From a virus, in the IMG/VR virus record IMGVR_UViG_3300006076_000021, positions 1 through 27,462 of that record: 27,462 nt of DNA; one strand, written 5' to 3'. Positions 11,969 to 23,476 of the stretch are shown here, in pieces (the first letter of the stretch is position 1; each line of letters starts with the position of its first letter). The notes under the pieces were generated by a model. It saw nothing but the letters and a program-made list of their open reading frames with translations, did not search any database and was not told the origin of the DNA. The translations under genes were made by a program, and so were the position numbers.

Positions 11969-12871
11969 TTAATGTACGTTCTCTAATTTATAATATTTAA
12001 CTTTAGTTTTACTACCATCACTATGTTCATATTGTATAGCTAATATATATTCAGATATATTAGGTTTAACTATATCTGTAGGTAATCCTATGGTGAAATT
12101 AGTAGTAGTTGTTTGATATATTATATCATAATCATCATCTGCTACTCCATATATAGTTAAGTAAATATTAGTAACATCATCTACAGGATTTAATGTTAAG
12201 GCATAACCATCTGTTACATTAACATCGGTTAGATCTGATGTCACTTCTATTTCAGGAACATCATATACAGTAAATACTACACCACCTGGTTTAGATATAT
12301 CGCCACTACTTGAAACATGCGATACAAAAGCTATATATGTCTGACCTGCTTCTAATACATCTTTAAAAAGATATGATGTTTTATTTTCAGTATCATTAAG
12401 ATTAGTATGTTTTACATTACCAAGTATATCTGTGATAATATAATTACTAGCTATATGCTGTGTATTACTAGTAGCAGTCATAGGAGTAGTCAGTATTTTA
12501 AATAATGTACCTGGTACATTGTCGTATTCAGTATTTACATTAGGATAATTTAAAGATACTACAGGTCTAGATACTACTCCAGGTAATTCACCTACTATAT
12601 TTATTTTAAAAGCATCAGCGTATTCTATAACATCTATCTCAGACCAGTTAGATACGTAGTTATTAAATCTTAATCTAGCTCTACCATAATATATTTTATT
12701 AGGATCTAAATCTATATCAAATATGATCGTATATAAATGTTGTTGATCGTTTAAAGATTCTACTACTATATCATCAGTATTAAAATCTTTGGTAGTAGAT
12801 ATTTGCCAATCAGTTGCTACGTGTACATCATCTCCAGATACTATAGGAGGAGTTACATTCATTATTACCAT
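11969..12871 (-). CDS. Fibronectin-III/Ig-like beta-sandwich protein, probably virion surface
   Basis: This 300-residue protein is almost entirely beta-rich, with high Thr, Val, Asp and Asn and no Cys. It appears to hold about three ~90-100-residue beta-sandwich units. The first (residues ~15-85) has the hallmarks of a fibronectin type III domain: ATDWQISTTKDF, then YYGRARLRF, then SNWSEIDVIEY. The second is around 110-205 (TPMTATSNTQHIASNYIITD to VVFTVYD). The third is around 208-297. Such domains occur on phage tail fibres, on capsid decoration proteins and on tail tube ornaments. There is no signal peptide. AAAGGA precedes the ATG by six bases. It is a single-gene unit. It is likely a host-recognition or decoration protein; the exact location on the virion is not shown. 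Confidence 0.6.
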   Translation of the reverse strand: MVIMNVTPPIVSGDDVHVATDWQISTTKDFNTDDIVVESLNDQQHLYTIIFDIDLDPNKIYYGRARLRFNNYVSNWSEIDVIEYADAFKINIVGELPGVVSRPVVSLNYPNVNTEYDNVPGTLFKILTTPMTATSNTQHIASNYIITDILGNVKHTNLNDTENKTSYLFKDVLEAGQTYIAFVSHVSSSGDISKPGGVVFTVYDVPEIEVTSDLTDVNVTDGYALTLNPVDDVTNIYLTIYGVADDDYDIIYQTTTTNFTIGLPTDIVKPNISEYILAIQYEHSDGSKTKVKYYKLENVH

Positions 12872-12958
12872 TGTATATCCTTTTAGTGTTTATTATTCAG
12901 TCTATGAATATACGTGTTAGTTAAATAAAAAAAATAAAAGGAGAAAAAAGGAGTAAAG

Positions 12959-12994
12959 ATGAAGTGCTTGACACACGCCGTCCCTGAGTGGTAG
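12959..12994 (+). CDS. Possible 11-residue peptide with tandem ribosome binding sites
   Basis: The plus strand carries two AAAAGGAG sites (12936-12943 and 12946-12953). The second is five bases before an ATG that opens MKCLTHAVPEW and then stops at TAG. The spacing is identical to that of real genes here. The codons are GC-rich and lie inside the hairpin at 12967-13010. It could be a leader peptide, a remnant of a broken gene, or chance, because the same tract reads as a pyrimidine tail on the opposite strand. No clear plus-strand promoter is seen. Confidence 0.2.
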   Translation: MKCLTHAVPEW

Positions 12995-13010
12995 GACGAC
13001 GTATGCCAAG
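12967..13010 (-). ncRNA. Candidate structured small RNA, 17-bp GC-rich hairpin
   Basis: On the minus strand the 5' arm CTTGGCATACGTCGTCC pairs with the 3' arm GGACGGCGTGTGTCAAG over all 17 positions (14 Watson-Crick, three G-U), around the 10-base loop TACCACTCAG. As plus-strand RNA the same three positions would be A-C mismatches, so the minus strand is the better RNA strand. The element is about 59% G+C in a very AT-rich genome. A near-perfect promoter motif lies upstream at 13032-13044. Downstream on the minus strand lies a pyrimidine-rich tract with two CTCCTTTT copies, which could help termination or pair with the AAAAGGAG sites used throughout this genome. No start codon lies in the predicted minus transcript. 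It could instead be a distant terminator of gene 13063. Confidence 0.45.
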
Positions 13011-13031
13011 AAATGTGTTTGTTTGTTCGTC

Positions 13032-13044
13032 TTAATTATATATA
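13032..13044 (-). promoter_or_regulatory. Promoter-like motif upstream of the hairpin RNA
   Basis: The minus strand reads TATATATAATTAA, one base different from the recurring TATATATTATTAA. It lies 19 bases after the end of gene 13063 and 22 bases before the hairpin. No protein gene begins within 160 bases downstream, which points to a non-coding transcript or a long leader of gene 11969-12871. Confidence 0.5.
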
Positions 13045-13062: not shown

Positions 13063-13323
13063 TCAATCCTCATCGTAGAATATAACATAATCTAAATCAC
13101 TAGGATCTCCTACTAGTTTTAGATCCTTCCACATTTTCTTAATATCAGGTATGTCTTCTACAGATATCTTTATTTCTTTACCAAATACTTTGTTATTATT
13201 AGAAAATGACATATTATACTCTGTATATGGAATATCATTTTTATCTAAATATTCCTTTAATTCATCCCAACTTTTATATGTGAAATTATGATCTACCCAT
13301 TCTACTAATTTACCTATTTTCAT
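13063..13323 (-). CDS. Small acidic protein of unknown function
   Basis: This 86-residue protein begins MKIGKLVEWVDHNFTYKSWD and ends in DPSDLDYVIFYDED. It is acidic, with a likely helix (SWDELKEYLDKNDI) followed by a short beta part (YNMSFSNNNKVFGKEIKISV) and another helix. It is not recognised. The start has AAAGGAG six bases upstream, and the best-matching promoter motif lies 30 bases further at 13353-13365, so it is probably a well-expressed single-gene unit. No conventional terminator follows it directly; the GC-rich hairpin 53 bases downstream may end its transcript. Confidence 0.65.
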   Translation of the reverse strand: MKIGKLVEWVDHNFTYKSWDELKEYLDKNDIPYTEYNMSFSNNNKVFGKEIKISVEDIPDIKKMWKDLKLVGDPSDLDYVIFYDED

Positions 13324-13352: not shown

Positions 13353-13365
13353 TTAATAATATATA
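13353..13365 (-). promoter_or_regulatory. Promoter-like motif, exact consensus copy
   Basis: The minus strand reads TATATATTATTAA, identical to the copies at 20243-20255 and 27414-27426. It lies 30 bases upstream of the start codon at 13323. Confidence 0.55.
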
Positions 13366-20242: not shown

Positions 20243-20255
20243 TTAATAATATATA
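20243..20255 (-). promoter_or_regulatory. Promoter-like motif for the RNA polymerase operon
   Basis: The minus strand reads TATATATTATTAA, an exact copy of the consensus. It lies 35 bases upstream of the beta-C start in the 170-base divergent gap 20209-20378. Confidence 0.55.
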
Positions 20256-21067: not shown

Positions 21068-21490
21068 ATGAGAAGAAATAGAAAAGATGGTTACGAGATC
21101 ATAGCAGAAAAAGTGTTAGCTAGTTTAGAAAATGATGTGTTGAGCACATGTGAGACACTTAATATCGCTATAGAAGCATTTGAGGATCATTTAGAAAACT
21201 TAGATCATCCAGGAAGAGGTAATCCTGATATACAAGCATCTATAGAAAAAGCAAAAGAAAAACAATTAGATATTAAGAAAGCTGTTAAACATCCAGGAGC
21301 ATTCCATGAATGGTGTGTTGAACACGGATATGAAAAAGTAACTCCTGAATGTATAGAAAAAGGATTAAAAGATCCTGATCCTGTAGTTAGAAAAAGAGCA
21401 AGATTCGCTAAAGTATTATTAGAACTACAAAAGAAAAAACAAGAAAAAGCTAAGAAAAAGAAATCTAAATCAAATAGAAGATCTAGGTAA
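21068..21490 (+). CDS. Small basic phage protein, possible DNA binder
   Basis: This 140-residue protein has a helical N-terminal part (ENDVLSTCETLNIAIEAFED). A central motif, KHPGAFHEWCVEHGYEKV then TPECIEKGLKDPDPVVRKRA, resembles the 'PGAFxxW...I..G....D...RKRA.FA' pattern I recall in short basic phage proteins of unknown role. The C-terminal ~25 residues are almost pure Lys/Arg/Ser/Gln (KKKQEKAKKKKSKSNRRSR), well suited to nucleic-acid binding. AAGGAG precedes the ATG. It follows gene 20379 by 41 bases and ends in a strong hairpin. A DNA-condensing or virion-internal protein is plausible; this is inference from composition. Confidence 0.7.
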   Translation: MRRNRKDGYEIIAEKVLASLENDVLSTCETLNIAIEAFEDHLENLDHPGRGNPDIQASIEKAKEKQLDIKKAVKHPGAFHEWCVEHGYEKVTPECIEKGLKDPDPVVRKRARFAKVLLELQKKKQEKAKKKKSKSNRRSR

Positions 21491-21937: not shown

Positions 21938-23476
21938 TTATCTTCTTCCGTATAATCCGTATGGATCGTATGGATTATATGGTGGTTGATCATACGGTTG
22001 TCTAGGATCAGGTTGATTATATCCTCTGTCATATCCTCCTCTAGGTAATCCGTATGGATCATACGGTTGTTGGTATCCTCTTGGGTATGTATTATTTCTT
22101 GGTGGTAAATACCCACCAGAGTTCATACCTGCATTAGGATTACCATAACCATACCCTGGCGTTGGATTAACTGGCGCTCTGTTTTGCACTCTTTCCATAT
22201 ACGCTTTTTGTTCAGCAGCCATTAATCCATCTATTAATGGATTACCTGTAGATGGAGGACCATAACTAGCTGGTGGATATTGTCCTCCTGCAGGTTGTCT
22301 GTTATCTACGCTACTGGGAAACCCTCCATAAGGAGCACCTCCTCTAACACCGAATATTCTCATTGCTTCTTCCGGAGATAGTTCATCGCTATCTTCTTGT
22401 TGTGGTTGTGTAATAGGTTGTTGATTAGTTTCAAATACAGACTTAGGTTGTTGTGTGTTATGTTGCGGATTAGTTTGTTGTGTTTGTTGTTGAGTTGTGT
22501 TGTCTGCTGTGTTAGGATTATAATCCATAATAAGTAAATCATGATCTGTAGGAATCTCCAATAATTCATATTTAATCTTATCTACAAATTTCTCTAGTTC
22601 TTCTATAGGTAGTGGTATATCTGGTAGAATCAATGTGTCTAATAATTCATTATCAAGATTTAGACTTTTAGCTACATCTATAGCTTTATTGATTTTATTC
22701 CTTAGGAAATCATACATCATCATAGTTACTATAAAACTAGGAGATGTAGTATTTTTAGTTCCTACCATATAACCGTCTAACAACTCATCTTTAGTTAATT
22801 CAAAGATAAACTCATATAGTCTTTGAAACACATGTTTATCTTTATTCCTTAACTTAACCTTACCTAATAATAAATCCTCTTTAACATTCATATTTTCTAA
22901 TTCTTCATATAGAGGAAATGTAATAGTACCTACTCTAGTATATTTAGTATCTCCTATCTTTCCTCCTTTCTTAACAAACATATGAAGGAATGTTTTATCT
23001 TTATCAGTTCCTATATCTGCTAATGTTTCCCATTTTTTAATAGTTTCATCATCCACTACTTTCTTGACACCAGGTTGGTTATATTTAAGCATATCTATAA
23101 ATTCTAAGAATTTTGGATCATAATTTTCCAACTCTTCCTGATACTTAACTCCTTGTAATAGTATCATACTTACACCAATGAAAGAATATTCTACCATTCT
23201 CTCTATATGTCTTCTGAGTTTAGTGAGAGATTTATTCTCTCCTTTAATAACGGATTCACTAAGAGGATTAAATATCCTCGCTTTTAATCTAGGTTTACCA
23301 TCAACTATTTCCACTATATCTGCTATTAATTCTTTCTTAGGTAGAATGATAGGTAAACCTTCTATATTGATAGGTAACTTCTTACCTGTAGAAGAGATAT
23401 ACATAAGTTTATTATTCTCTTCTACGATGTTAAATGTTTTAAGTATATCTGTATAAAATTTAATTATGTTATTCAT
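21938..23476 (-). CDS. Large protein with a Pro/Gln/Tyr/Gly-rich disordered tail
   Basis: In this 512-residue protein residues 1 to about 325 form a charged, mostly helical folded part (for example LIADIVEIVDGKPRLKARIF and FVDKIKYELLEIPTD). The last ~185 residues are low-complexity. A Gln/Asn/Thr stretch (TTQQQTQQTNPQHNTQQP) comes first, then a short acidic helix (DELSPEEAMRIFG). A Pro/Gly/Tyr/Arg tail follows, with repeated units PYDPYGLP, PYNPYDPYGL and RGGYDRGYNQP. The tail resembles phase-separating or adhesive disordered sequences. AAGGAG precedes the ATG. It is the last gene of a four-gene block, 17 bases after the stop of gene 23494-25038, and ends near the convergent terminator. It is probably a virion or assembly protein by context; the family is not recognised. 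Confidence 0.7.
   Translation of the reverse strand: MNNIIKFYTDILKTFNIVEENNKLMYISSTGKKLPINIEGLPIILPKKELIADIVEIVDGKPRLKARIFNPLSESVIKGENKSLTKLRRHIERMVEYSFIGVSMILLQGVKYQEELENYDPKFLEFIDMLKYNQPGVKKVVDDETIKKWETLADIGTDKDKTFLHMFVKKGGKIGDTKYTRVGTITFPLYEELENMNVKEDLLLGKVKLRNKDKHVFQRLYEFIFELTKDELLDGYMVGTKNTTSPSFIVTMMMYDFLRNKINKAIDVAKSLNLDNELLDTLILPDIPLPIEELEKFVDKIKYELLEIPTDHDLLIMDYNPNTADNTTQQQTQQTNPQHNTQQPKSVFETNQQPITQPQQEDSDELSPEEAMRIFGVRGGAPYGGFPSSVDNRQPAGGQYPPASYGPPSTGNPLIDGLMAAEQKAYMERVQNRAPVNPTPGYGYGNPNAGMNSGGYLPPRNNTYPRGYQQPYDPYGLPRGGYDRGYNQPDPRQPYDQPPYNPYDPYGLYGRR

Follow-up and report, generated by a model that had tools for sequence, protein, structure and literature searches.

The locus and its source

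Between two minus-strand genes of the viral record IMGVR_UViG_3300006076_000021 lies a GC-rich hairpin with a promoter-like motif on one side and a U/C-rich tract on the other. The question is whether this element belongs to a dedicated small RNA (sRNA) acting on ribosome binding sites or ends the transcript of the gene in front of it. The window, by which we mean the whole stretch of DNA analyzed (27,462 bases, 28.4% GC), has PHROG matches to the major head protein, DnaB helicase, a second helicase, two RNA polymerase beta-type subunits and a polymerase family, and these matches mark it as part of the AT-rich genome of a jumbo phage of the phiKZ type. The closest named phages are still distant (about 26–33% identity), while the IMG/VR contigs sharing the gene order of the window showed ~30–44% protein identity in core genes. 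The latter contigs, L047/L058, L048/L059 (also L003), L049, L050, L051, L057 and L060, are referred to as the clade below. The features of the locus are listed in Table 1.

A separate observation concerns a 140-aa protein encoded at 21068–21490 of the window, which was 64% identical over 45 residues to L060 5521–5655, far above the 30–44% seen for core genes. The match in L060 lies on the strand opposite to the adjoining core genes, and the gene is perhaps a mobile one.

Table 1. Features at and around the GC-rich hairpin (coordinates are those of the window).
Feature	Position	Strand	Remarks
GC-rich hairpin, 18 bp	12967–13010	-	Arms 12993–13010 and 12967–12984, loop 12985–12992
U/C-rich tail	12923–12966	-	29 U and 10 C of 44; two copies of CUCCUUUU
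Early-promoter-like TATATATAAT	13035–13044	-	Followed by 6 nt (TAAGAC) and G at 13028, the predicted start
86-aa gene	13063–13323	-	Transcript most likely ended by the hairpin; exact early promoter TATATATTAT at 13356–13365
300-aa gene	11969–12871	-	Downstream of the hairpin; conserved in the clade; no early-type promoter in the proximal upstream region
Tandem Shine-Dalgarno matches AAAAGGAG	12936–12943, 12946–12953	+	Ranked first and 12th within the window
11-codon ORF, MKCLTHAVPEW	12959–12994	+	Stop codon lies within the hairpin; unlikely to be a gene

A hairpin in minus-strand RNA

Read as minus-strand RNA, the element forms 18 pairs, 14 Watson-Crick and four G-U, around the loop ACCACUCA. 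The sequence-only reading had described 17 paired stem positions, all of which were recovered together with a closing U-G pair, and its figure of 59% G+C for the 44-base element was reproduced (GC of 0.59). The minus-strand RNA of the 120-nt region around the hairpin folded with -30.3 kcal/mol (z of -6.64), and none of 200 shuffles was as stable, while the plus-strand RNA of the same region reached -20.9 kcal/mol (z of -1.09). The whole window was also dinucleotide-shuffled 200 times; the mean best stem score was 27.2, and a single shuffle attained the score of 41 found here. No 44-nt stretch of the window exceeds the element in GC; one in coding sequence, at 22309, is nearly as rich (0.568), and the corresponding maximum in shuffled windows averages 0.53. 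We regard the high GC by itself as a modest signal, yet a striking one for an intergenic position. The hairpin in minus-strand RNA is well supported as real.

The same palindrome could act as DNA, namely as a protein-binding inverted repeat, a recombination site or an inserted mobile hairpin. It is isolated and GC-rich, has symmetric CTTG/CAAG ends and was not found in the relatives, all of which would suit such an element. However, every difference between the two arms is a G-U pair in the RNA of one strand, which is not required of a DNA site, and the palindrome occurs in a single copy in the window with no target duplication seen. We thus consider a DNA-level element extremely unlikely.

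The asymmetry between the strands had been taken to indicate the minus strand as the functional RNA. The differences in fold stability agree with this part of the claim, but the pattern loses its value as a sign of an sRNA once gene ends are compared. A strand-neutral rule was applied to hairpins at gene ends, both in the window and at seven loci of the clade, and convergent gene pairs were excluded. Relative to the 86-aa gene, the element has three G-U pairs versus none by this rule (four with the closing pair). In 51 other gene-end hairpins, 30 transition differences gave G-U pairs on the strand of the gene and 7 on the opposite one (one-sided binomial p of about 1e-4). The asymmetry therefore speaks for an element that functions as minus-strand RNA; it is no specific mark of an sRNA, because the transcript-end hairpins of the clade typically carry the same sense-strand bias.

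Gene-end hairpins in the clade

Hairpins mark nearly all gene ends in the clade, in most cases close to a T-run. In the window, L049–L051 and L057–L060, such hairpins are near-universal and their loops are mostly 4–6 nt long. The T frequency behind the stems is highest ~6–16 nt past the stem, not directly at it, and this offset may reflect how the phage polymerases terminate. The element shares with these hairpins the position at a gene end, downstream of the stop codon on the gene's strand, as well as the sense-strand G-U bias and a T-rich tail.

In other respects the element stands apart. When compared with 47 clade gene-end hairpins (48 in total), it has the highest GC (0.59 against a median of 0.32), a stem among the longest (18 against a median of 12) and jointly the most G-U pairs. 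It starts 52 nt past the stop codon of the 86-aa gene, the second-largest distance of the 48, while the clade median is 3 nt. The first run of four T appears 17 nt past the stem, compared with a clade median of 7 nt, although 10 of the 47 others are equally late. The tail begins with CACTTCATCT, and a standard scan for canonical bacterial intrinsic terminators, which looks for at least five T in an 8-base window starting 0–2 bases past the stem, did not report the hairpin. Its distal tail (positions 26–45 of the tail) is also the most U-rich among the 48 hairpins. The element is an outlier of the gene-end hairpin class and no textbook terminator.

The orthologous place in the relatives

The 300-aa protein belongs to no Pfam or PHROG family, and its gene occupies a fixed place in the clade between the helicase and the DnaB/head genes. 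Upstream of its orthologue, a hairpin with a T-rich tract was found in four contigs (L047, L048, L051 and L060). Those of L047 (GC of 0.50, three G-U pairs) and L060 (GC of 0.47, two G-U pairs) are GC-rich for their own genomes. No such hairpin was seen at this place in L049, in which only 20 nt separate the genes, or in L057, where a T-tract is present but no clear hairpin accompanies it. In L048 (11826–11900), a weaker hairpin is followed by ACUUC..ACUCCUUUUUU, as in the window, and the sequence past the hairpin, AACUUCUCACUCCUUUUUUUAUUU, is close to CACUUCAUCUUUACUCCUUUUUU of the window. The resemblance of the ACTCCTTTTTTT tail of L048 to that of the window is observed although the proteins are only ~29–38% identical. 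Since the L048 hairpin has a similar tail, the CUCCUUUU copies may most simply be regarded as part of a terminator-like tail.

For the 86-aa gene, we found neither a family match nor a relative in the clade records, and no end hairpin other than the element. As neither the gene nor the hairpin has detectable relatives there, the two may be of recent origin or evolve fast.

The sequence-only reading had named the terminator of the 86-aa gene as the last of its options, and this one fits best, with terminators being present at the orthologous place in the relatives. We propose, with a probability of about 0.52, that the element is the atypically GC-rich 3'-end hairpin of the transcript of the 86-aa gene. 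The promoter-like motif between the gene and the hairpin, the outlier traits of the element, and the two contigs lacking a hairpin (L049 and L057) count against this assignment.

The promoter-like motif

The motif between the 86-aa gene and the hairpin is, as had been noted, one base off the consensus promoter TATATATTAT, and its spacing to the G is correct. With a promoter matrix built from clade upstream regions, the consensus was TATATATTAYTWA, and most of the strong sites were located 27–51 nt before start codons. This consensus is nearly identical to the early promoter of phage AR9, AAATATATATTAT-(6N)-G (PMC5312081). Promoters of this early type occur clade-wide (in the window on the minus strand at 13356–13365, 20246–20255 and 2904–2913, and at clade loci) and precede several genes including those for RNA polymerase subunits. 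Two unsupervised promoter searches overfitted and gave no basis for a second class of promoters used late.

Scored with the clade matrix, the motif takes 22nd place among about 55,000 positions, and several matches inside coding regions score higher. Its score of 9.4 bits falls below the intergenic sites upstream of minus-strand genes (10.0–15.7 bits). The same A variant is, on the other hand, found upstream of gene 23494 and in L058. In AR9, the virion RNA polymerase (vRNAP) did not use one of the predicted early promoters, which has a single mismatch (PMC5312081). We give about even odds that the motif is a working early promoter. The proposal that the hairpin has its own promoter is plausible given the single mismatch and the spacing. 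The statement that no start codon follows the motif for about 160 bases proved correct, as there is no ATG from the motif to 12871.

The U/C-rich tail and ribosome binding sites

The two CUCCUUUU copies in the tract downstream of the hairpin, which had been pointed out as complements of the ribosome binding sites, are present. In a short RNA starting at 13028, the tail is predicted to be unpaired. In a longer transcript, UCCUUUUA pairs with UAAAAGGA of the 300-aa gene with a predicted probability of about 0.95–1.0. This pairing resembles the masking of ribosome binding sites in long early transcripts of some late genes of phage T4.

The tract may accordingly be read as part of a long 5' leader of the 300-aa gene, which would start at 13028 or arise by read-through from 13356–13365 and in which UCCUUUUA would mask UAAAAGGA until a closer promoter is used. 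Besides the pairing itself, such a leader would agree with the lack of a proximal early-type promoter for this gene and with the range of 5'UTR lengths in AR9 (26 to 491 nt; PMC5312081). The masking idea failed in a control, however. Over 105 clade genes, the Shine-Dalgarno sequence had a mean pairing probability of 0.52, and the 300-aa gene and its orthologues ranked 10, 13, 30, 49, 53, 65 and 81 among them. The idea loses force because Shine-Dalgarno sequences are often paired in this way across the clade and the orthologues are scattered in the ranking, which means that the pairing is not conserved as a trait of this gene. We regard the long leader as quite improbable.

On the plus strand, the tract reads AAAAGGAG-AA-AAAAGGAG, followed by an ATG at 12959 at the modal spacing. 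The best ribosome-binding-site match of the window lies here (12934–12947), with the second copy at 12944–12957. These tandem sites could serve a micro-gene of 11 codons ending in the hairpin. The top Shine-Dalgarno score, the correct spacing and the finding that the other intergenic AAGGAG-N4-8-ATG sites of the clade are nearly all ahead of longer ORFs speak for translation. Nevertheless, no matching promoter lies upstream on the plus strand and no plus-strand gene downstream, the 11 codons are GC-rich within a genome of 28% GC, the plus-strand fold is weak (z of -1.09), and the tract also makes sense as a U/C tail behind a terminator on the minus strand. A micro-gene is therefore very unlikely.

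A possible stand-alone small RNA

The motif and the tail together raise the possibility of a stand-alone phage sRNA, which would be transcribed from the early virion-RNA-polymerase promoter at 13035–13044 with its start at 13028, be stabilized by the GC-rich hairpin, and block ribosome binding sites in trans through the U/C tail. The near-consensus site with the correct 6-nt spacing to G, the recurrence of its A variant and the lack of an ATG in the putative RNA are consistent with this, as are the two anti-Shine-Dalgarno copies predicted to be unpaired. Furthermore, sense-strand CTCCTTT is rare in the clade apart from complements of a neighboring gene's ribosome binding site. Against these points stand the promoter score below the main intergenic sites, the similar matches inside genes, the one-mismatch promoter ignored by the AR9 vRNAP (PMC5312081) and the lack of a homologue, hence of covariation. 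In addition, gene-end status accounts for the strand asymmetry, and U-rich tails generically pair with Shine-Dalgarno sites. A dedicated regulatory sRNA, the initial proposal, is thus not supported: the asymmetry is general, the position is that of a terminator and the pairing is commonplace. We consider the stand-alone sRNA unlikely. Its most far-reaching version is an early sRNA made by the injected virion polymerase, whose GC hairpin would present a double anti-Shine-Dalgarno tail tuning ribosome access to phage or host messages globally. With complementarity as the sole positive evidence, such a regulator is conceivable but exceedingly improbable.

Searches for homologues

Searches of Rfam at gathering and permissive thresholds gave chance matches only, none above the gathering threshold, and a tRNA search found none. 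Exact and degenerate hairpin patterns run against IMG/VR and bacterial genomes returned either nothing or 41 chance matches, which were in contigs of at least 50% GC. BLAST of the element yielded marginal short matches in phage records (E of 0.3 or worse) and none in plasmids. A one-sequence covariance model, which provides weak evidence, was run over whole relative records, and only the element itself and its own reverse strand stood out. In all, no homologue was found in Rfam, phages, plasmids, IMG/VR, bacterial genomes or the relatives. No genome of the bacterial collection contained an exact match to the hairpin core, and thus no CRISPR repeat with that sequence is known there.

Proposed function and comparison with known systems

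Under the 3'-end reading, the minus-strand transcript of the 86-aa gene would end in the GC-rich hairpin and then the U/C-rich tail. Hairpin and tail would stop the phage RNA polymerase and/or protect the 3' end of the RNA before the 300-aa gene. If the promoter at 13035–13044 works, a short RNA of ~75–110 nt that starts at 13028 would likewise end in this hairpin and tail. A terminator or 3'-end RNA of this kind would imply that split multisubunit phage polymerases work with hairpins far beyond the usual range, while in the case of an sRNA a jumbo phage would provide a rare example of an early regulatory RNA, a class of which very few members are known.

Of the known RNAs, the Racr RNA anti-CRISPRs (PMC10651486) resemble the element only in concept, namely that of a short hairpin-bearing phage RNA. 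The Listeria LhrC-type anti-Shine-Dalgarno sRNAs combine a hairpin with a CU-rich stretch that stays unpaired and complements ribosome binding sites. They are comparable solely in the way they work, as the Rfam LhrC match of the element is at chance level (17 bits versus a gathering threshold of 110, E of 2.5). The ~100 nt RNA from the 3'UTR of PHIKZ298 in phiKZ was demonstrated by Northern blotting; it carries two stem-loops, the second being a probable terminator, and lacks its own mapped start site (PMC8545117). Like that RNA, the element is intergenic, lies downstream of a gene in a phiKZ-type jumbo phage and has a stem-loop as the probable terminator of that gene. The element differs in having one hairpin and a possible promoter of its own. 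Since phiKZ makes a stable RNA from the PHIKZ298 3'UTR, the 3'UTRs of jumbo phages can yield stable small RNAs (PMC8545117).
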